Of a stretch of 64,000 bases of DNA, positions 18,600-34,913 are shown piece after piece (the first letter of the stretch is position 1; each line of letters opens with the position of its first letter). Made by a program: the position numbers and the translations under genes. The notes below the pieces were generated by a model. That model was not told the DNA's origin and did not search any database. It saw only the letters and a list, made by a program, of their open reading frames with translations. The DNA is from Acidipila sp. (GTDB lineage: Bacteria > Acidobacteriota > Terriglobia > Acidiferrales > UBA7541), in contig JAAFGT010000003.1 of NCBI GenBank assembly GCA_010365215.1, positions 1 through 64,000 on the forward strand, given 5' to 3'.

Positions 18600-19283
18600 A
18601 TGCAATGCCAACAATTCATGGAGGGTGCTGCCGACTGGATGGAGGGACACTGGTCCTCCGAGGCGCAAGCGCACCGCTCCGCCTGCGCGCAGTGCGGCGC
18701 GCTGCTAGCCGACCTGGAAGCCATTCAGCATGCCGCGCCGCTGCTGGCCGAGCCGTTCGCCGAGCCCCCGGAGCGGGTGTGGCTGTCGGTGCGCGCACAA
18801 CTTCAGGCGGAAGGTATTTTGCGCACGCAGCGCAGCTGGCTCGATAGGCTGAAGGATTCGTTTACGCTGGCTCCGCGACCCGTAATGGCGGGGGCCTATG
18901 CGGCGCTGTTCGCGGCCGGAGTAGCGCTGTTTTTCGCTACCTCCCATCACCCTTCCAATAACCCGCTTGCGCAACTCGCGACGCGCAATTCCGCATCACC
19001 GCTGGCCTCCACGCCAACCGCCGCGCCGCCCGACAGCGTCTATTCCGCGCAATTGGCTAACGTGGAGCTGAACACCATGGGCTCGGTGCGCGCCCAGGAT
19101 CCGGCGATTGCCGATTCGTACCGCCAGAATCTGGCTATCGTTGACAATTTTATTGCCGTATGTGAAAAAAGGGTTCAACAAGATCCACAAAATAGCGTGG
19201 CGCGCGAGTACCTGCTTAACGCCTACCAGCAGAAAGCGGACTTGCTTGCGGCTATGGTGGATCGGGGCACCCTGGGAGATTGA
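18600..19283 (+). CDS. Membrane anti-sigma factor with zinc-binding motif
   Basis: 227 residues. The N-terminus carries the zinc anti-sigma (ZAS) pattern H25-x3-C29-x2-C32 with an early Cys3, in HRSACAQCGALLADL. A single membrane segment follows at about 93-115 (AGAYAALFAAGVALFFA), and about 110 residues lie outside, ending in a helical region (NVELNTMGSVRAQDPAIADSYRQ...). The cytoplasmic part should hold the sigma factor from the preceding gene inactive until an envelope signal arrives. It is placed 6 nt after the sigma gene and 4 nt before the DUF4097 gene, so all three are probably one transcript. Confidence 0.88.
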   Translation: MQCQQFMEGAADWMEGHWSSEAQAHRSACAQCGALLADLEAIQHAAPLLAEPFAEPPERVWLSVRAQLQAEGILRTQRSWLDRLKDSFTLAPRPVMAGAYAALFAAGVALFFATSHHPSNNPLAQLATRNSASPLASTPTAAPPDSVYSAQLANVELNTMGSVRAQDPAIADSYRQNLAIVDNFIAVCEKRVQQDPQNSVAREYLLNAYQQKADLLAAMVDRGTLGD

Positions 19284-19287
19284 TGTA

Positions 19288-20232
19288 ATGAAGCAGCCCG
19301 TGCCAGAAAGATCAGAAAATACGCTCCCCGTCGCTGCCGAGTTTCGCGTGCGCCCGTTTCGCGTACGCTCGACCCGCGCGCGCTCGAGGTCCGTGCGCCT
19401 CGCCTCCCTGCTCACCATGAGCATCGTGGCGGCGGCTCCGGCGTTCGCGCATCGTCTGGAAAAAACGTTTACCGTGACCGGCCGGCCGATGGTCACCGTG
19501 CGCAATGCCCAGGGCAAGATCCATGTGAGCTCCTGGAAGCGCAACGAAGTCTCCATCGTCGCGGAGCACACCAGCAATCGTGTAGAAGTGGACGCCGTAC
19601 AGCGCGGCAGCCAGATTGAATTGCTTACCCACGTGCTGGAAGAGAATGTAAGCCCCGCCGAGCTTACCGCCGACTACCAGATTTCCGTGCCGGAAGAAAG
19701 CGAGCTGCAGATTAAAAATGACGGCGGCAACGTCTACGTCGAGCGCGTTTACGGCGACATCACCATCGATACCGTGGCCGCCACGGTCGAAGTGCAGGAA
19801 ATCTCCGGGTATCTGGCGGTGCGTACGGTCGGCGGATCATTCCTGTGCCGGCATTGCGCCGGTCACATCGATTTCAACTCCATTAGCGGCAGCGCACAGC
19901 TGCTGCAACCGATGAGCTCAAATGTCCGCGCGCAGACCAACTCCGGCGACTTGCTGTTTGACGGTGAATTCATGCGCGGCGGAATGTACTCCTTGAAGAA
20001 CATGAGCGGAGTGATCGAAGTGCGCTTCTCCGATAACGACTCGCTGAACCTGACCGCCACCTCGGTAAACGGCAAAGTAGAAAATCAGGCCAACCTGAAA
20101 CCGGAAACACATCGCGCGCTGCGCCTTCCCGGGAAGTTTGCCAACAGCCTCACCGGCACGCTCAATGAAGGGCTGGCGCGCATAGAACTGACTTCCTTCA
20201 ATGGTACAATCCGCATTCGCAAGCGGGAGTAA
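19288..20232 (+). CDS. Exported DUF4097-type beta-repeat protein (left unit)
   Basis: 314 residues from ATG 19288, 4 nt after the anti-sigma stop with GGGAG upstream. A basic N-terminal stretch and hydrophobic run (about 32-50, ending AAAPAFAHR) form a long signal peptide. The mature part is a ladder of short beta repeats with NxxG/SG turns (VRNAQGKIHVSSW, KNDGGNVYVERVYGDITID, TVGGSFLCRHCAGHIDFNSISG, TNSGDLLFDG, SVNGKVENQ, SFNGTIRI), the pattern of DUF4097 adhesin-like or LiaF-like domains. A CRHC pair in one rung could form a disulfide or bind metal. Its genetic coupling to a sigma/anti-sigma pair suggests it is either sensor or output of that circuit; which one cannot be told from sequence. 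Confidence 0.85.
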   Translation: MKQPVPERSENTLPVAAEFRVRPFRVRSTRARSRSVRLASLLTMSIVAAAPAFAHRLEKTFTVTGRPMVTVRNAQGKIHVSSWKRNEVSIVAEHTSNRVEVDAVQRGSQIELLTHVLEENVSPAELTADYQISVPEESELQIKNDGGNVYVERVYGDITIDTVAATVEVQEISGYLAVRTVGGSFLCRHCAGHIDFNSISGSAQLLQPMSSNVRAQTNSGDLLFDGEFMRGGMYSLKNMSGVIEVRFSDNDSLNLTATSVNGKVENQANLKPETHRALRLPGKFANSLTGTLNEGLARIELTSFNGTIRIRKRE

Positions 20233-20270
20233 TCCTTTAATCCCCCGCTCCGTCTGGGTGTCTCCGGATC

Positions 20271-20822
20271 ATGCCAAGTACAAGTGACTCGCGCCGCACG
20301 CGACTGGTCTGCCTGGCCGGCTTTATGGGCAGCGGCAAGAGCACCATCGGCCAGTTGCTGGCCCGCCAGGCCGGGCACCGCTTCATCGATCTGGACACGC
20401 GCATTGAGGAGCGTTCCGGCCTCAGCATTCGCGAATTTTTCGAGCGCCAGGGCGAAGCGCGCTTTCGCGAGCTCGAGCATGAAACACTGCTGCTCATCCT
20501 GGGAGAGATTGCCGAGAAAGGCCAGCCGGCGGTGCTGGCGCTGGGCGGCGGCACCTACGCCCGGCCCGGCAACCAAGCCGCCCTGCGCGAACAGGGCGCC
20601 GCGGTGGTCTGGCTGGATTGTCCCGTCGATGAACTTTTCGCACGCTGCGCCACCATCACCAACCGTCCGCTGTTCCGAGACGAAGCCAGCTTTCGAGAGC
20701 TTTTTCTTCAGCGCCTTCCTTCTTACCAGATGGCCGAACATCGCGTGGAAAGCACCGGCGATCCGCGCAACGTAGTGTCCCAGATCCTGAGTTTGCAGCT
20801 ATTCGAAAGGGTGAGTGCATGA
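20271..20822 (+). CDS. aroK: Shikimate kinase
   Basis: 183 residues, usual length. P-loop GFMGSGKST near 17-25, then FIDLDTRIEERSGLSIREFF (the shikimate-binding Asp and the DxD), GEARFRELE (substrate Arg), the LALGGGTYARPGN loop, and the lid Arg in NRPLFRD. It phosphorylates shikimate at O3 in the chorismate pathway in the cytoplasm. It follows the DUF4097 gene by 38 nt on the same strand and overlaps the next gene by 4 nt (ATGA), so it may be cotranscribed with the sigma operon even though its role is metabolic. Confidence 0.96.
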   Translation: MPSTSDSRRTRLVCLAGFMGSGKSTIGQLLARQAGHRFIDLDTRIEERSGLSIREFFERQGEARFRELEHETLLLILGEIAEKGQPAVLALGGGTYARPGNQAALREQGAAVVWLDCPVDELFARCATITNRPLFRDEASFRELFLQRLPSYQMAEHRVESTGDPRNVVSQILSLQLFERVSA

Positions 20823-21565
20823 AGCGAATAGGAATTTTTGCGGTCCTGGCTGGATTTTTCTTTATCACCGGGCCAGTGCCCGGCCATGCCCAGGACAAAC
20901 CCGCTAAAGAAAAAACAAAGAAATCCGCAAAACCGTCGGCAAGCTCCGCGCCCGTGTTCGTTGATGAAAAGGGCCGCTTCAAGGTGATGGCCGACGGGCA
21001 GCTCGTGGCTACCGAAGAATTTCAGATCTCCGGGAACGGCGGGGAGTGGCACGCCCGCGGAAATTCCGAGGTTCCTGCATCGGCGGCGGGTAGCACATCA
21101 AAAGTGAGTGGAAAGCTCGACCTCACCGGCGACGGCAGGCCGGTGCGTTACGAGTGGAGCGCGTCTTCACCGAAGAAGGCCTCGGCGGTAATCGAATTCA
21201 GCGGCGGCACGGCCAAGATGGAGCTGCGCATGGACAACGCCGCGCCGTTCAATCAGGATTTTACATTCGACTCCGCGCGCGTGGTGATCCTGGATAACAA
21301 TCTTTATCACCACTACGCCATCCTGGCTCGCCTGTACGACTGGAAAGCCAAAGGGCCGCAATCGTTTACAGTTTTCATTCCTCAAGATACGACTCCGGGC
21401 ATCGTGTTGGTTGAATATGGCGGTGCCAAGGTGGTCGAAGGGGTACAGCTGGAGATGCTGCGGGTGCGCAGCGCGGACAACGAAATCGAGCTCTACTGTG
21501 ACAGCTCCGCGAAACTGCTGAGAATTTCCGTGCCTTCCTCGAAAGTAGAGATTATCCGCGAGTAG
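20819..21565 (+). CDS. Exported protein of unknown function after aroK
   Basis: 248 residues. The signal peptide is clear (MKRIGIFAVLAGFFFITG, cleavage near GHAQ), followed by a Lys/Ser-rich linker. The mature part is mainly beta: VFVDEKGRFKVMADGQLVATEEFQI, a middle region (GKLDLTGDGRPVRYEWS), then NNLYHHYAILARLYDW and a C-terminal EIELYCDSSAKLLRISVPSS. No family was recognised with confidence; the repeated long strands suggest a periplasmic beta-sandwich or lipid-binding type fold. The start overlaps the aroK stop (ATGA). It is the last gene of the rightward unit and meets the PDZ gene of the leftward unit 51 nt away. Confidence 0.8.
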   Translation: MKRIGIFAVLAGFFFITGPVPGHAQDKPAKEKTKKSAKPSASSAPVFVDEKGRFKVMADGQLVATEEFQISGNGGEWHARGNSEVPASAAGSTSKVSGKLDLTGDGRPVRYEWSASSPKKASAVIEFSGGTAKMELRMDNAAPFNQDFTFDSARVVILDNNLYHHYAILARLYDWKAKGPQSFTVFIPQDTTPGIVLVEYGGAKVVEGVQLEMLRVRSADNEIELYCDSSAKLLRISVPSSKVEIIRE

Positions 21566-21616: not shown

Positions 21617-22738
21617 CTAGACCGCCACGCGACGCGCCGTGCGGGGATCTGCGGGCGGAACGACCGGCTCAATCGTAACCGGCAGCGTCATTTGGGTTCC
21701 CTTCCGAAGAATAACCACGTCTACCGTTTTGCTTTCACGCTTGCCACGCAGCCCGGTGCGCAGACCGGTGCGCAGGTCGCTCGAATTTCCCACCCGTTCG
21801 CCGGACAGCTTGATGATTACGTCGCCCGCCTTGAGTCCGGCTTTCTCCGCTGCCGAACCACTGCGCACCTCGCGGATCAGCACGCCTTCCCCTTCCGGCG
21901 CGCCAAAATATTTGCCCAACTCGCCGCTAAGATCTTGGGCGTCTATCCCCAGGCGAGGAGTGCCTGGAGCGAAAATCTCGCCCATCGAAGGAAACGACGG
22001 CATGATGGGCATCGATGGCATATCCGGCATCGCCGGCATCACCATGTGCATCTCGCCATCGGGCCACGCAAAATGCCCGCCCGAATGGCTGTTTACGTGT
22101 CGCGAGGTCAGCGCGGCAGAAATTGTCTGCGCACGGCCGTCGCGCCAGATGGTGAATGCAACAGTACGGCCTGGCGGCGTCTCATGCACCAGCCTGCGAA
22201 ACTGCGCGGCCCCTTCAATGCGCAGACCGGCCAGCTCGGTAATCACGTCCCCCGATTTCAGGCCAGCCTTGGCCGCCGGTGAATCCGCTTCGACGTTACT
22301 GATCAGCACGCCCCGCTCGGCGGGCAGCTTTAGCTCTTTCACTTTTTCCGGGGTCACCTCAGCGACGCTTACGCCCAACCAGCCATGGTCTTCGCTCACG
22401 GAAAACGAATAGACGTTATCGGAGGTCAGCTCTTGCGTATCCTGCGCCAGCAGTACAGGGCACACATCTTCCACGGCACTAACTGTCTCTTCCAGGTTCG
22501 CTTCGAGATTTTCGATGTCGACGACAGCGTTTTCGATGTCGATTACAGACTGGTTCTGCTCGACTTTCTGGCATTCGCTGAAGCCGCCGTGAGGGTGCGA
22601 ACGCTTTGCCGGACGCGAACGTTGCTGATTCCCCACCGCCGAGCGCCCTGCGGCGATTCGTTCTCTGCTGTCCCCGGGCAAGACCACCAGCGTAAGCAAG
22701 AGCGCGCCAGTCAGGTAATTCAGTGCATGCGTTCTCAT
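21617..22738 (-). CDS. Exported protein with two PDZ domains and Met-rich linker
   Basis: 373 residues. An N-terminal hydrophobic segment (8-21) is a signal peptide. Residues 64-92 contain two DIEN repeats and acidic helices. PDZ1 spans about 120-212 (GWLGVSV, SPAAKAGLKSGDVITELAG) and PDZ2 about 262-356 (LGIDAQDL, GSAAEKAGLKAGDVIIKLSG). No trypsin-like protease domain is present, so it is not DegP/HtrA but an adaptor-type PDZ protein. The linker at 230-252 has eight Met and several Pro, a composition seen in some copper-handling proteins. It is the last gene of the leftward sigma/anti-sigma/DUF4097 unit, 24 nt after the preceding gene. Peptide-binding grooves look intact; the partner is unknown. 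Confidence 0.9.
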   Translation of the reverse strand: MRTHALNYLTGALLLTLVVLPGDSRERIAAGRSAVGNQQRSRPAKRSHPHGGFSECQKVEQNQSVIDIENAVVDIENLEANLEETVSAVEDVCPVLLAQDTQELTSDNVYSFSVSEDHGWLGVSVAEVTPEKVKELKLPAERGVLISNVEADSPAAKAGLKSGDVITELAGLRIEGAAQFRRLVHETPPGRTVAFTIWRDGRAQTISAALTSRHVNSHSGGHFAWPDGEMHMVMPAMPDMPSMPIMPSFPSMGEIFAPGTPRLGIDAQDLSGELGKYFGAPEGEGVLIREVRSGSAAEKAGLKAGDVIIKLSGERVGNSSDLRTGLRTGLRGKRESKTVDVVILRKGTQMTLPVTIEPVVPPADPRTARRVAV

Positions 22739-22762
22739 GTCTTTCTCCTTGCAGTCATCCGG

Positions 22763-23602
22763 TTAGACGATGGGGCCAGCCATCCGTAAGCGCACCGCTC
22801 CGTTCATAGTTTGAATACGCAGCCGGCGCCCACCCGTGCCCAGGCGGCAGCGCAACTGCCGCCCTCCGGCGGAGGCGCTGCGCTCCACGGGCAGCTCAGA
22901 TGAAAAATCCCCATTCAGGCTGCGGATGTCGAGATCGGAATTGGTCTGCGCAGGGAGGGCCAGCACCACCGTGCCGTTAATCGTTTCGATGGTGGCCGGC
23001 GCATCGCCTTCCGCGAGCGTATCGCCGAGATGGCCAAGCTCCATATAGATGTTGCCGTTGGTGGAGCGCGCGTCGAAGTGGCCGGCGCCGTCGTAAAACT
23101 CGATATTCCCGTTGACCGTACGAAGCGCTCCCGCGCCTTCCACGGCGCGAACGCGCACCGTGCCGTTCACCGTGGCCACGCTTTCCAAACGCACGCGGTG
23201 CGGAACGCGCACATGGTATTCGACGCCCACGTCGACGCCTTCCCCTTCCGGGTAAATCGTGCGCACCGCAATTCCGTCCGCGCGGGCAAGCACCTCGATT
23301 TTCACGCCGGACCCTTCTGCCAGGTCGGCTGCCCTGGTCTGCAGGGCGGTGATCTGCACCTCTTCGCGTGACCAGCCTTCCACCTCGATCGATCCGTTCA
23401 CATTGGCCAGCGAGAATGTGCCGCCCCAGGCCAGCGGCAGAGTGCGCTGAAATTTCTCGGTGATTACCGCGCGGGGCGCGGGCTTCTTCTGTCCTGCGGG
23501 ACCAGGCTGGGCCAATGCGCCCAGGCCGGCAAGGCAGACCACCGCGAGAGCGCTGGCCCGCGTGAAATAGCGGACCTTCGAGCCGCTGTGCGTACAATTC
23601 AT
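22763..23602 (-). CDS. Exported DUF4097-type beta-repeat protein (right unit)
   Basis: 279 residues from ATG 23602; upstream in-frame sequence is not coding-like. The signal peptide is about 1-32 (YFTRASALAVVCLAGLGALAQ). The body is a series of short repeats with NG turns: VNGSIEVEGW, TVNGTVRVRAV, TVNGNIEFYDG, STNGNIYMELG, TINGTVVLAL, SLNGDFSSELP and TMNGAVRLRM. This is the DUF4097/adhesin-like ladder fold. It resembles the left-unit protein (19288-20232) in architecture but is clearly diverged. 56 nt separate it from the larger DUF4097-TonB fusion upstream. The role is unknown, probably at the cell envelope. Confidence 0.87.
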   Translation of the reverse strand: MNCTHSGSKVRYFTRASALAVVCLAGLGALAQPGPAGQKKPAPRAVITEKFQRTLPLAWGGTFSLANVNGSIEVEGWSREEVQITALQTRAADLAEGSGVKIEVLARADGIAVRTIYPEGEGVDVGVEYHVRVPHRVRLESVATVNGTVRVRAVEGAGALRTVNGNIEFYDGAGHFDARSTNGNIYMELGHLGDTLAEGDAPATIETINGTVVLALPAQTNSDLDIRSLNGDFSSELPVERSASAGGRQLRCRLGTGGRRLRIQTMNGAVRLRMAGPIV

Positions 23603-23658: not shown

Positions 23659-25566
23659 TCACGGCAAGCGGAACGTTACTGCTACCTCGCTGACCACCGG
23701 CACGCACTTGCCCTCGAGCATCGTCGGCTCGAAACGCCACTGGCGAACCGCCTCGGCAGCGGCCTGCGTGAATAATGGAGATCCAGAGAGCACTTTGACG
23801 TCCTCCACCTGGCCGCTGGCGTCGACGGCTACGCGGAGCCGGACGGTACCTTCCAGCTGCTGCCGCTTCGCCCTCTCCGGATAGACCGGCTCGACGCGGT
23901 GCGAGATTTTCTGGCGAAGTTCGTCGGCCGGCACCACGACGCGATCGCCCCATACGCCCGCTCTGTTTTCGTGGGCGTGGCGCATCTGCTCCGCCATCTC
24001 TTTGCCATGCTCCGCCATTTCGTGGGCGTGGCGTTTCAGGTCCTCGACGCTGTGCTGCATATCCATTTCCAATTCGCATTTCCGCTGCTGCATTTCAAAT
24101 TCCTGATCGATCATAACGCCCAGGTTGTCCAGCAAGTGATCGAGTCCGGAAGTTGATTTTTCAAGGTCGGCCTCGAATTTGGATTCATCGAACGAAAACG
24201 CCGGTCCGGTCGCGGTGGCCAGCCGCAGATGAATGTTGCCGTCCTCCGCTTTCAGTCGTACGCGCCGGCCGCCGCCGTTGAGTGAGGCTTCCGCGCGCAG
24301 TGCCCCGCCCCGCCCAGGCTGTCCCGAGGTCACTTTGAGGGCCAGCGCAGGATCGGCATCGATGTGGTAAGCCTCGGAATTCTCGAGTGTGGCCTCAATG
24401 ACCACCCCCAAGTCCCGGGGCATGTACACCACGATGTCGCCGTTGCCGCTCTCCAGTTCCGACCCCGCATCCACCGGCCGCGCTGGAATTTTCGCCCCGC
24501 CCGCTGTTTTCCCCTGCGCCGGAAGTGCCGGCGCAACCAGCCACGCGGTGATGGCTCCAGAAGCGGTAGAAGCTTTCACGCTACCCTGCACCTGGCTCAG
24601 AAAAATCGCTCCGGCGCCGGTCTGCAGCTCGGTGGGCCCCACCACCCGCAGAATACGGATTCCGCCGCCTCCGGTGGAGGCCTGCAGACCGCCCGAAGCT
24701 TCGCCCACGACGATGCGGCCACCGCCGGTGGAAACGTTCAAACGCGAGCCTGCTTGTTGGAGGAAAATATTTCCGCCGCCGGTCTCTAAACGCGCGGTCC
24801 CGTCGACCTCTGCTACGCGGATGTGGCCGCCACCGGTGCGCAGAACGGCGTCACCACGAATTCTTCCGGCTGAGATATGGCCGCCGCCGGTCTCCGCGGT
24901 GAGCTCGCCGGAAACGTCCTGCACGGTGATGTGGCCGCCGCCACTTTCGAGTCGCGCATCACCGCCAACCTTGCCGACGGTGATGTTTCCGCCGCCGGTT
25001 TCCAGACGCAATCGCGCATCAATACTCGCCACATCAATGGTGCCGCCCTGGGTGTTGACTTCGAGTGGAGAATTACGCGGCAAGGTCAATTCCAGGCTCA
25101 CCCACAGGCGCCCGCCATGGCGTTCGGAAATCTTGCGGCCAGACACATTGACGCCATCTCCTGCGGCCTGCGCGCTGACGGTAAAGACATTTTTTCTATC
25201 GGCCGCGCTGGAATCTCCCGCGGGACCTTCCACGCGCAAATGGTAACTGACCGCGCCGGCCGCGCCGGTGAGGATGCGCACGTCCCCCATCTCCATCTCC
25301 ACGCGCACTCTTCCAGCGTCGCGAATAGGGATTGTGCCGTTCTGCTCGCTCAGCAACTGGCGCTTCCCGACGCTGCGATCGCTCGCTTCGCCGGCGGGCC
25401 CAGACCGCGGCCCGCGACCCGCGGCGGCGGCCAGAGGAAAAAGGAAAAGCACGACAACTGCGAGAGCGCCAAAATAGTTGGCGCTCCTCACCGTTGAACT
25501 GCCGCGCAAACGCTGGCGCGAACTCGAGCGCACAGTCGAGCGCACATCGGTGTTAGTCATTTTCAT
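23659..25566 (-). CDS. DUF4097-type beta-solenoid fused to TonB C-terminal domain
   Basis: 635 residues. A hydrophobic segment (about 32-49) is a signal peptide or anchor. Residues 170-345 hold about nine near-regular rungs of roughly 17-20 residues built on xLxTGGGxIxVxxVxG, a textbook beta-solenoid signature. After further beta strands (375-450), a charged helix (480-533) is rich in His and Met (KRHAHEMAEHGKEMAEQM, then RHAHEN). The last 83 residues (553-635) are a TonB C-terminal domain: SHRVEPVYPERAKRQQLEG, VRLRVAVDASGQVEDVKVLSG, and the AVRQWRFEP signature. The architecture suggests a periplasm-spanning energy or signal coupler. It is the third gene of the right unit, 35 nt after the HEAT anti-sigma factor. 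Confidence 0.88.
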   Translation of the reverse strand: MKMTNTDVRSTVRSSSRQRLRGSSTVRSANYFGALAVVVLFLFPLAAAAGRGPRSGPAGEASDRSVGKRQLLSEQNGTIPIRDAGRVRVEMEMGDVRILTGAAGAVSYHLRVEGPAGDSSAADRKNVFTVSAQAAGDGVNVSGRKISERHGGRLWVSLELTLPRNSPLEVNTQGGTIDVASIDARLRLETGGGNITVGKVGGDARLESGGGHITVQDVSGELTAETGGGHISAGRIRGDAVLRTGGGHIRVAEVDGTARLETGGGNIFLQQAGSRLNVSTGGGRIVVGEASGGLQASTGGGGIRILRVVGPTELQTGAGAIFLSQVQGSVKASTASGAITAWLVAPALPAQGKTAGGAKIPARPVDAGSELESGNGDIVVYMPRDLGVVIEATLENSEAYHIDADPALALKVTSGQPGRGGALRAEASLNGGGRRVRLKAEDGNIHLRLATATGPAFSFDESKFEADLEKSTSGLDHLLDNLGVMIDQEFEMQQRKCELEMDMQHSVEDLKRHAHEMAEHGKEMAEQMRHAHENRAGVWGDRVVVPADELRQKISHRVEPVYPERAKRQQLEGTVRLRVAVDASGQVEDVKVLSGSPLFTQAAAEAVRQWRFEPTMLEGKCVPVVSEVAVTFRLP

Positions 25567-25601: not shown

Positions 25602-26609
25602 CTAGTCCTCTTTGCGGGCGGCGATCTGCTGCATTGCGGCGGCGCTCTGCATGCGCACGAATTCGTTGGGATCTTTCGCGGTACGCTCGGCCAGAACGCG
25701 CGCGATGCGATCGTCGCGCAGCGGTGACTGGTCGCTCTGATTCTCCAGGAAAGCGCGCAAGGCGCCTACCGCCTCTACACGCACACCGGGATTCTTGTCG
25801 TGTTGCAAAGCGTCGAGTAACGTCTGGCGCACCAGGTCGTCGTGCTCAAATCCGTGCAAGGCCTCCACCGCTTTCAGGCGCACGCTGGAATTCAGATCGC
25901 TGCGCGCCGCTTGGCAAAGCGCCTGGCGCACATCGGTGTCTTCGAGCAGCGGCTTTAACAGCTCCACGGAATCGAGCCGCACATCAGGGTCGAAATTATC
26001 TCCGGCGCGAAGCGCGCGTACCAACGCCAGGCGAACATCGCGGTCGGACGCCGAACCCTGCACCACTAACGGGCGCTCCGAGGTCATCAGCACTTCCACG
26101 CCATTGCCGGAAAGCCGGCGAATTCCGGTAATTTCCGCGCGAGCGGCTTCGCCGGAGGTATACACCTGAGAGGCCGGTGTCACCGTCGCAGGCTTCAGCG
26201 CTCCGCTGAAAGAGATCTGCGGCGCTACTCGGCCCAGCGCCATGCCCATCACCACCAACAGCGCAGCGCTCCACGCCGGATGCTCGGTGACCCAACCGGA
26301 TAAGCGCACACGGCCAAGCGCTCGGCGCGCGCGGGCCAGCCAACCGATTTCCACCTCGGTGTGGTCGAGAGCCCCGGAAAGCGATTGGCGGCAGCTAGCC
26401 AGGAACAGCTCGGAAGGTTCATCGCTTTCAGCCGCGGCGATAACCTCCATCAGCTGATTTTCCCGGCGGAGAGCGGCCGCGCAGCCCGGGCACGCGGCTA
26501 CATGCTGCTCAACGCCGGCCCGGCGCGACGGCTCCAGTTCGTCCCAGGCGCATAACGCGAGCAAACGTTCAAATTCCGCGCACGCCCCGCCGCTGGCAGG
26601 AGTATTCAT
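25602..26609 (-). CDS. Membrane anti-sigma factor with C-terminal HEAT repeats
   Basis: 335 residues. The zinc-type anti-sigma motif is at the N-terminus (H36-x3-C40-x2-C43, VEQHVAACPGCAAALRRE). A membrane segment lies at about 111-127 (AWSAALLVVMGMALG). The outer part begins with about 60 beta-rich residues and ends in HEAT-like helical repeats (about 188-332: DVRLALVRALR, SVRLKAVEALHGF, GVRVEAVGALRAFLE, FVRMQSAAAMQQIA). HEAT repeats usually bind proteins, so they are the probable sensing surface. The start overlaps the stop of the upstream sigma gene by 4 nt (ATGA), the usual translational coupling of a sigma/anti-sigma pair. Confidence 0.88.
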   Translation of the reverse strand: MNTPASGGACAEFERLLALCAWDELEPSRRAGVEQHVAACPGCAAALRRENQLMEVIAAAESDEPSELFLASCRQSLSGALDHTEVEIGWLARARRALGRVRLSGWVTEHPAWSAALLVVMGMALGRVAPQISFSGALKPATVTPASQVYTSGEAARAEITGIRRLSGNGVEVLMTSERPLVVQGSASDRDVRLALVRALRAGDNFDPDVRLDSVELLKPLLEDTDVRQALCQAARSDLNSSVRLKAVEALHGFEHDDLVRQTLLDALQHDKNPGVRVEAVGALRAFLENQSDQSPLRDDRIARVLAERTAKDPNEFVRMQSAAAMQQIAARKED

Positions 26610-27262
26610 CGGACTCCCTCCAACTGGCTGCGCAGTTTGCGTGTGGCGCGGAACAGCGAATTCTTTACCGTCTCCTCGGTGGTGCCCAGCAGATCGCCAA
26701 TCGCGCGCAGACGCAGGCCCTGGTAATGCTTCATCTCGAAAACCATGCGCTCTCGCGCGGAGAGACTCTGCATGGCCACGGCAATGTGCCGGCCGATTTC
26801 TTTGCCCAGCATGGTTTTTTCGGGATTCGCGCCGGGATGAACCTCCGCCTGGCGGTCAAAAAAATCCGCCTGTGCTCCGTCGTGGTCCTCATGGCCTGAC
26901 TCCGGCGCCTGACTCTCCGGGCGGCTGGAGCGGCGGCGAAGGTGATCCAGGCAGACGTTTGTGACCACGCGATAGAGCCAGGTGTAGAAGCTGCACTCGA
27001 AACGAAAAAGATGGATGTTTTTGTAGACCTTGAGGAATGCCTCCTGATAGAGGTCGCGGGCATCTTCGGGGCGCCGCATCAGGTTCAACGCCAAGCGCAG
27101 CACTTCCTGGTCGTACCGGTGGATGAGCTCGTCGAACGCCGGGCGGTCGCCCCCCTGCGCGGCGCGGATGAGCGACTGCTCGTCCAGCGACTTCGTAGCG
27201 GAGGCCCCCGCACTGCCGTCAAAGGCCAGGGTCATTTCAGTTCGCAGCATATCCTTGGGCAT
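26606..27262 (-). CDS. ECF RNA polymerase sigma factor, right unit
   Basis: 218 residues. Region 2 is at about 32-105 (AFDELIHRYDQEVLRLALN, RPEDARDLYQEAFLKVYKNI, FYTWLYRVVTNVCLDHLRRR) and region 4 at about 155-210 (SLSARERMVFEMKHYQGLRL, IGDLLGTTEETVKNSLFRAT). An acidic linker of about 45 residues joins them (GHEDHDGAQADFFDRQAE). Probable function: directs transcription of an envelope-stress regulon, held off by the HEAT anti-sigma factor encoded immediately downstream with a 4-nt overlap. It is the first gene of a leftward unit of five genes (26606 down to 21617). A degenerate 26-bp direct repeat lies upstream at 27351-27402. Confidence 0.95.
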   Translation of the reverse strand: MPKDMLRTEMTLAFDGSAGASATKSLDEQSLIRAAQGGDRPAFDELIHRYDQEVLRLALNLMRRPEDARDLYQEAFLKVYKNIHLFRFECSFYTWLYRVVTNVCLDHLRRRSSRPESQAPESGHEDHDGAQADFFDRQAEVHPGANPEKTMLGKEIGRHIAVAMQSLSARERMVFEMKHYQGLRLRAIGDLLGTTEETVKNSLFRATRKLRSQLEGVR

Positions 27263-27350
27263 CGCGGCCGCCCGGGCACAAATCCATAACCGGCCGGCTC
27301 GCCGCCTACCCCCTTAGACGGGACTCCGGTCCCGAGGTAAGCTGAGCTGG

Positions 27351-33248: not shown

Positions 33249-34913
33249 ATGCCGGGACGAAACCTACTGGGGGCCGCTTTGCCGCGGCGCGCGATTCGAC
33301 TGGCTACCGTCTGGGACGACCGGCGCGAAAACTTTCGCTCCTGCCTGTTGACTTTACTGCACGGCCCGGCGCCGCCGCAAGGCTGGCCAGTGGGTGAATT
33401 CTTCCGCGACACCTGGCTGCGCGGCCGCCCGCCTTGGAAATCGCTGTCCGCTTCGGTGTTGTGGCATCTGTTTGTGGTTCTTATTCCCGTCTGGCTATGG
33501 ACTGCTCCAGGAGGCGTCGACCCGGCGTCCCGCCATTACACAATCACGTGGTCGGGTCCCATCCGCGATCTGCTGCCCTATGCGCCATCGCGCACGCGCT
33601 CCAAACCGCGAATGCCTGGGGAGCGCGCAAATCAGCAGCCGCGCCTTGGCGCCGATGCGTTCCATCCCAGGCAGACGATCATTTCCGCTCCTCCGAAAAT
33701 CACCCATCCGCGCCAAACCTTGATCCAGCCGGATGCGCCGCTCGAGCCTCCAAAAATTCTTCCCGCACTGCCCAACGTTGCGCAGTGGATACCCACGCCC
33801 TCGCGGCCGTCGCTGCACGTAAACACTTCCGCGCGCATTCGCACGCCAACGCGCGCTTCCGCTGCGGCCGTCTCCGCGCCAGAAATTAAAAAAGACGACG
33901 CCAACCTCGCGGCCGTCACGCTGGCGAATGCCGAGGCCAGCTTGGTGCGGCCAAAACTTGAAGTCACGCGCACCGCCCAACCGCAGTTCCGCGAACCACA
34001 GCCCAATCAGCAATCAGCGGTGGCGCCGGAAGCTGCGGCTTCCAGCCCCGTGGCTGAGCCAGGAACCCAACGAATCCTCGCGCTCTCCGCTTTTCCCGCC
34101 CCCGCTCCGCCGAAGCTGGAAGTGCCGCCAGGAAATCTGGCCGCTCGCTTCGCGATTTCTCCGGACGGTAACCAGCCTGGCACTCCAGGCGGCGTACCCG
34201 AGGGAGCCAATGCAGGCGGCGGCACTGCGGACGGCGCGGGGGCAGGAAATGGAACCGGCACTCTAGGTGGAACTGGCGGAAAGGGCGGGGCCATCCCTGA
34301 TATCAGCATCACCGGCGGCGCGCCGGAAAAATCCGCAACCGTTTCCGGGACCGGAAGCGGCATCACCACTTCGCCCAGCAACAAACTGCAGTTGACTCCA
34401 TTTAAAGCGGAGACGAACATTCCCGCGGCGGATTCAACGCGCACACGGCCAGAGTCGCTGCTCGATCGCGCCAAGGCCGGCTTGCCGCCCGAAGATATTC
34501 TCGACCCTGGGCGCATCTACACGCTGCACGTCAACATGCCCAACCTCGCCAGCGTTACAGGAAGCTGGGTATTGAAGTTCAGTGAACTTCAGGACGAAGA
34601 GCGCAAAGCGACGAATCAGGCAGCCGCGCTGGATTTAGCAGGGCCCGTGCCGCTGCGCAAGGTGGATCCCAAGTATCCACCTTCGTTGGTGAGCGCAAGA
34701 ATTCAGGGAGAAGTAGTTCTCTATGCCATCATCCGGCGCGACGGTTCGGTGGACAGCATTCAGCTTCTTCAGGGACTCAATCCACAACTCGATCAAAATG
34801 CCATGGAAGCGCTGGCGCGGTGGAAGTTTCGGGCCGCGGAGCGAAAAGGCAAACCAGTGGAGCTCGAAACCATTGTGCGCATCCCTTTCCACACCGTGTC
34901 GTCGGCTTACTGA
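33249..34913 (+). CDS. TonB-family protein with C-terminal TonB domain
   Basis: 554 residues. A cytoplasmic N-terminus of about 63 residues (longer than classical TonB) leads to one membrane segment (about 66-86, SLSASVLWHLFVVLIPVWLW). A long Pro/Ala-rich and then Gly-rich spacer (about 87-390) crosses the periplasm. The C-terminal domain (about 460-551) has the TonB pattern LRKVDPKYPPSLVSARIQGE, VVLYAIIRRDGSVDSIQLLQG and MEALARWKFRAAERKGKPVE. It transmits energy or force to outer-membrane partners, or acts as a TonB-like adaptor. exbB/exbD are not in the window. It converges with zwf 30 nt downstream. Confidence 0.88.
   Translation: MPGRNLLGAALPRRAIRLATVWDDRRENFRSCLLTLLHGPAPPQGWPVGEFFRDTWLRGRPPWKSLSASVLWHLFVVLIPVWLWTAPGGVDPASRHYTITWSGPIRDLLPYAPSRTRSKPRMPGERANQQPRLGADAFHPRQTIISAPPKITHPRQTLIQPDAPLEPPKILPALPNVAQWIPTPSRPSLHVNTSARIRTPTRASAAAVSAPEIKKDDANLAAVTLANAEASLVRPKLEVTRTAQPQFREPQPNQQSAVAPEAAASSPVAEPGTQRILALSAFPAPAPPKLEVPPGNLAARFAISPDGNQPGTPGGVPEGANAGGGTADGAGAGNGTGTLGGTGGKGGAIPDISITGGAPEKSATVSGTGSGITTSPSNKLQLTPFKAETNIPAADSTRTRPESLLDRAKAGLPPEDILDPGRIYTLHVNMPNLASVTGSWVLKFSELQDEERKATNQAAALDLAGPVPLRKVDPKYPPSLVSARIQGEVVLYAIIRRDGSVDSIQLLQGLNPQLDQNAMEALARWKFRAAERKGKPVELETIVRIPFHTVSSAY

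Follow-up and report, generated by a model that had tools for sequence, protein, structure and literature searches.

The window analysed here, a 64,000-nucleotide stretch of an Acidobacteriota genome (Acidipila sp.), carries an operon that encodes, in order, an ECF sigma factor, an anti-sigma factor, a protein joining a Toastrack solenoid to a TonB C-terminal domain (TonB_C; P0001), a second Toastrack protein and a protein with two PDZ domains (Table 1). The coordinates that a preliminary description of this DNA gave for the P0001 reading frame are correct; the strand is the minus one, and the gene runs from 25566 to 23659. As that description had stated, the anti-sigma gene is directly upstream of it, and this gene in turn overlaps the sigma gene by 4 bases. 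Against the RpoE equivalog model TIGR02939 (NCBIfam), the sigma factor scored 108.4 bits, short of the cut-off of 236.15 bits. The second Toastrack protein matched DUF4097 below the gathering threshold (E 4.5e-4) and the LiaG model at E 6.8e-8 (Pfam, NCBIfam), and scans against the same two collections detected no protease domain in the double-PDZ protein. The gene order was kept in nearly all family loci examined, and largely also in the other families of the class, some of which lack the second Toastrack gene. The HEAT repeats of the anti-sigma factor are predicted to lie on the periplasmic side of its transmembrane segment, an unusual-looking architecture that is conserved across the class; no description of HEAT-repeat anti-sigma factors of this type was found in the (largely open-licence) literature searched. 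A second, convergent module at 18600-21565 of the window encodes an anti-sigma-like protein, a Toastrack protein, shikimate kinase and a 248-aa secreted protein. It is conserved beside the first module in many relatives, and a second sigma-like gene adjoins it in relatives.

Table 1. Features of the operon and of P0001, with positions in the 64,000-nucleotide window.
Feature	Coordinates	Strand	Basis
ECF-type promoter GCTTAC-N16-CGTCTA upstream of sigma gene	27313..27342	-	Conserved motif
ECF sigma factor	26606..27262	-	Pfam Sigma70_r2, r4_2; TIGR02937 sigma70-ECF
Anti-sigma factor: zf-HC2-like N-terminus, one likely TM at ~114-134, C-terminal HEAT repeats	25602..26609	-	
Toastrack (DUF4097)-helix-TonB_C protein P0001, 635 aa	23659..25566	-	ORF, Pfam matches, full-length homologues conserved
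P0001 export signal region, residues 1-50, hydrophobic core ~33-49	25417..25566	-	Sequence; cleavage sites of homologues
P0001 Toastrack beta-solenoid, residues 69-450, 18-residue rungs	24217..25362	-	Model, PDB matches, motif count
P0001 helix linker, residues 461-534, His/Met-rich in P0001	23965..24186	-	Model pLDDT ~42-70
P0001 TonB C-terminal domain, residues 541-635	23662..23946	-	Pfam PF03544, model, structure matches
Second Toastrack/LiaG-like protein, signal peptide, 279 aa	22763..23602	-	DUF4097, LiaG model; conserved position
Second copy of promoter motif, ~25 bases upstream of PDZ gene	22762..22791	-	
Protein with two DegP-like PDZ domains	21617..22738	-	Pfam, NCBIfam

The solenoid of P0001, which the preliminary description had recognised without identifying it by name, is a DUF4097 'Toastrack' domain in Pfam (PF13349, residues 91-344, E 1.2e-6, 28.5 bits against a cut-off of 22.9). 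About nine TGGGxI-type rungs had been counted there. Between residues 172 and 339 the strict motif [TS]x[GS]GxI occurs nine times, with eight copies in succession exactly 18 residues apart, whereas 2000 shuffles of P0001 averaged 0.07 such motifs and reached 3 at most. An AlphaFold2 model based on 35 aligned sequences (mean pLDDT 81, pTM 0.64) comprised about ten rungs, with further strands up to residue 450. Its pLDDT was mostly above 90 in the solenoid (69-450) and in TonB_C (541-635), and low at the N-terminus, in a loop at about residues 350-365 and in the helix at 461-534; with a pTM of 0.64 and linker pLDDT below 70, the relative placement of the domains is unreliable. Solved Toastrack-type structures (4qrk, 3ljy, 4opw, 3lyc and 3pet) were matched by the solenoid in Foldseek and VIA-align comparisons, with a Foldseek E of 2.2e-6 and Z 11.1 for 4qrk, and Z 15.5 for 4opw_B.

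The C-terminal end had been read as a full TonB_C domain, and it is complete by Pfam (PF03544, residues 559-634, E 2.4e-21, 76.4 bits against 24.6, model positions 2-79 of 79). It also folds like TonB C-terminal domains in the model, matching them at Z 9-11 (including 6i97_D, 2gsk_B and 1u07; Foldseek, VIA-align) and sharing the YP and WRxxP-type motifs of the TonB proteins of E. coli and P. aeruginosa and of FusB. Structure prediction, named in the preliminary description as the check on its domain reading, thus returned both the solenoid and the TonB_C fold. Together they are a new domain combination within a known kind of system, and in the open-licence literature we found no paper treating Toastrack and TonB together. 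TonB_C is used freely in this genome, as seen from its 15 matches, one of them a PilZ fusion. That fusion (L133:609-2879, at C2) is an unusual one, in which PilZ, a c-di-GMP binding family, and TonB_C share one 757-aa ORF. Elsewhere in the window, on the plus strand at 33249-34913, a 554-aa protein combines a hydrophobic segment at its N-terminus with a long central stretch of low complexity and a TonB_C end.

We assessed how widely this architecture is distributed. A search of genome contigs with the single protein found nothing, and 40 loci were recovered with an alignment of 8 rows; one of 27 rows was too divergent to serve as a query. By record name, the homologues belong to Acidobacteriota (gp2, Ca. 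Acidiferrales, Ca. Acidiferrum and Terriglobia MAGs); two records titled Bacillota and Betaproteobacteria (L095, L108) carry the Acidobacteriota-type operon and are probably mislabelled MAGs. In the class sample, 168 of 299 genomes had a P0001 match at E 1e-30 or better. Among the matches listed, those reaching the TonB_C end came from about 38 genomes, all in P0001's own family, and those in other families of the class stopped before TonB_C; likewise, no match spanning both domains fell outside the family among those listed for the phylum sample. The search for the same domain order in other genomes, which the preliminary description had suggested, therefore recovered full-length homologues, among the matches listed, only within one Acidobacteriota family. 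On a quick tree of the Toastrack part, the TonB_C label needs two changes, for example a single gain and a single loss within the family, although long branches in that tree make any such history tentative. Since orthologues in sister lineages lack TonB_C yet keep the operon, the tail is accessory to the system. Most homologues of P0001 have A-x-A type cleavage sites, and we infer that P0001 is a secreted, periplasmic protein.

A de novo dyad count over 53 homologous upstream regions of the sigma gene revealed the motif GCTYAC-N16/17-CGTC. It was found in 49 of these (0.08 expected from shuffles), although some of the 53 are the same contig present in two collections, so that independent loci are somewhat fewer. 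No conserved site emerged with a generic GGAAC/CGTA pattern for ECF promoters, and no informative one from a generic sigma-70 scan. A second possible promoter, GAAACAA-N15/17-CGTT, lies further upstream of the sigma gene at about 20 of the 53 loci (e.g., L100, L104 and L118). Like the sigma gene, the PDZ gene has GCTYAC-N16/17-CGTC in front of it, both here and in several relatives (e.g., L089, L116 and L091). A stricter form ending in CGTCYA occurs at four places in the genome itself: before the sigma gene, before the PDZ gene, 68 bases upstream of a Do-family HtrA/DegP gene unlinked to the operon (L143; TIGR02037 E 3.6e-123, marginally under the cut-off of that model, with the protein truncated at the end of the locus), and in the trigger-factor region, where no ORF follows and the match is probably due to chance.

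Among loci examined from 14 relatives, those of four genomes (L151, L164, L169 and L170) likewise had the motif in front of an htrA-type gene. The total count of the pattern in the 14 relatives was near that of a reversed-pattern control, so most isolated matches are background; outside the operon and htrA, matches were about as frequent as in the control. With about four background matches per genome, however, we estimate the chance of a match at such a position and orientation before htrA to be of the order of 1e-4 per genome, and the occurrence in five genomes is therefore not attributable to chance. The sigma factor of the operon presumably uses this motif and, judging from the copy before its own gene, is apparently autoregulated.

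With a motif shared by the sigma, PDZ and DegP/HtrA genes, the operon looks like a sigma-E-like envelope-stress system of Acidobacteriota (Ca. Acidiferrales/gp2 relatives), and the promoter evidence raises the likelihood of an envelope-stress role well beyond what the preliminary description could have known. It resembles the RpoE-RseA-RseB-DegS/DegP system in its apparently autoregulated ECF sigma factor, membrane anti-sigma factor, periplasmic accessory proteins, PDZ domains and motif before htrA. Unlike in the RpoE system, the anti-sigma factor combines zf-HC2 with HEAT repeats, and neither DegS nor RseB was recognised in the operon in Pfam and NCBIfam scans. Toastracks have been proposed to form an assembly surface in envelope-stress signalling (PMC11237479). 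P0001 shares with Toastrack/LiaG-type proteins a DUF4097 match above the cut-off, the beta-helix fold (4qrk, 4opw) and linkage to a putative envelope-stress operon. However, Toastracks are argued to be generally intracellular (PMC11237479), whereas P0001 bears an export signal, 18-residue TGGGxI rungs and a C-terminal TonB_C, and it is encoded with an ECF sigma factor and a HEAT anti-sigma factor rather than with PspC or LiaRS.

The 'sensor or coupler' reading of the preliminary description is thus upheld in its two folds and its association with an anti-sigma/ECF operon, while its coupler part is weakened and its metal-binding part finds no support, as set out below. P0001 may still be a sensor. 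On the sequence evidence, we give roughly even chances to P0001 being a secreted periplasmic member of the sigma-E-like system that tethers or reports the state of outer-membrane proteins, and the molecular function that we infer is as follows. The Toastrack would act as a docking surface for a pathway partner, for which the anti-sigma factor with its HEAT domain, the other Toastrack of the operon and the PDZ protein are candidates. In TonB-receptor complexes such as 2gsk, the TonB C-terminal domain binds a peptide as an added strand, and the tail of P0001 would capture a beta-strand peptide in the same manner, extending its sheet. Outer-membrane receptors, for which the genome has 17 Plug-domain candidates, could offer their TonB box as such a peptide, and outer-membrane proteins that have misassembled could offer a strand. 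P0001 would then tether outer-membrane proteins to the stress system or inform it of their state, and would not itself pass on proton-motive energy.

The nearest functional precedent we found, compared by description rather than by sequence, is VreA of the P. aeruginosa PUMA3 system (VreA-VreI-VreR). VreA is periplasmic and mostly soluble, and it acts together with an ECF sigma factor and an anti-sigma factor; its TolA/TonB-like end has been proposed as the site of contact with a partner in the outer membrane (PMC2729926). Both proteins have a signal peptide, a TolA/TonB-like C-terminal domain and genes for an ECF sigma and an anti-sigma factor alongside, and P0001 may be similar to VreA in its working. 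It is not a member of the VreA family, however, since its N-terminal part is a Toastrack and not the STN domain of VreA (no STN match in a Pfam scan of P0001), and the VreA regulon consists of secretion and virulence genes and is not known to include htrA. By analogy, P0001 could be a soluble adaptor whose TonB-type domain reads TonB boxes or misfolded outer-membrane strands and signals via the Toastrack to the sigma-E-like system, with the HEAT anti-sigma factor as receiver, a VreA-like route evolved separately in Acidobacteriota; we put this forward as a possibility, and a rather doubtful one.

Several other roles were weighed. P0001 might instead be a negative-feedback regulator in the manner of RseB, one that binds the anti-sigma factor at its periplasmic HEAT domain and is freed when peptides occupy TonB_C. 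That its gene comes directly behind that of the anti-sigma factor, an arrangement conserved in the class, and the VreA precedent both favour this, but Pfam and NCBIfam scans returned no RseB-type match, and we regard it as a minority prospect of perhaps one in several. An adhesin-like structural protein of the envelope or surface that is merely stress-induced is improbable: its solved structural relatives are annotated as putative adhesins, but these names are labels given to uncharacterised structural-genomics targets, and the tight linkage to the sigma and anti-sigma genes favours a role in the response.

We consider it very unlikely that P0001 is a canonical TonB-like energy coupler, anchored in the inner membrane and passing ExbBD force across the periplasm to receptors, even though its TonB_C is complete and the genome encodes Plug-domain receptors (17 candidates). 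Its N-terminus resembles a signal peptide. The SxxxH motif is absent from its first 60 residues (and matched in only 2 of 34 aligned homologues), there is no Pro-rich periplasmic spacer (no 40 residues of the linker region contain more than 3 Pro), and ExbB/ExbD are not near its gene, the genome's copies being found only at C59 and C1, where each adjoins another TonB_C match. Linkage of ExbB/ExbD to the TonB gene is not essential in all bacteria. Taken together, the evidence from the ExbBD-interacting transmembrane motif, the spacer and the ExbBD locus leads us to reject a canonical TonB identity, and energy transmission by P0001 is unlikely. The proposal of a periplasm-spanning coupler is further weakened by the compact solenoid of about ten rungs, the low-confidence helix and the cleavable-looking signal peptide in most homologues.

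A copper or zinc sensor or buffer acting through the His/Met-rich helix is the least credible role, since even the closest homologues of the same architecture do not share the His/Met residues, and Pfam and NCBIfam scans of the operon pointed to no gene for metal handling. The helix at residues 505-533 does contain several Met, as had been described, but six His (505, 513, 515, 520, 530 and 532) rather than seven. Six His per 29 residues was reached in only 6 of 2000 shuffles of P0001 and is unusual for its composition. The linkers of homologues are mostly Q/E/R-rich or Pro-containing, and among the aligned TonB_C-bearing homologues nearly all have 0-3 linker His (L091 alone has six) and no Cys, His or Met position of the linker is conserved. 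The cluster is, on this comparison, a peculiarity of the P0001 sequence; metal binding as a function of the family is not supported, and the metal-binding helix was rejected on these conservation grounds.

Acidobacteriota are abundant soil bacteria that are hard to culture, and we found no worked-out sigma-E equivalent for them in the literature searched. The operon, its conserved promoter motif and the link to htrA make a directly testable candidate for such an equivalent, and the promoter/htrA link is the most useful by-product of the analysis. If P0001 does serve as a periplasmic member of the sigma-E-like system, the TonB_C tail on a soluble periplasmic protein, together with VreA, would support the view that TonB-type domains can act as signalling peptide readers.
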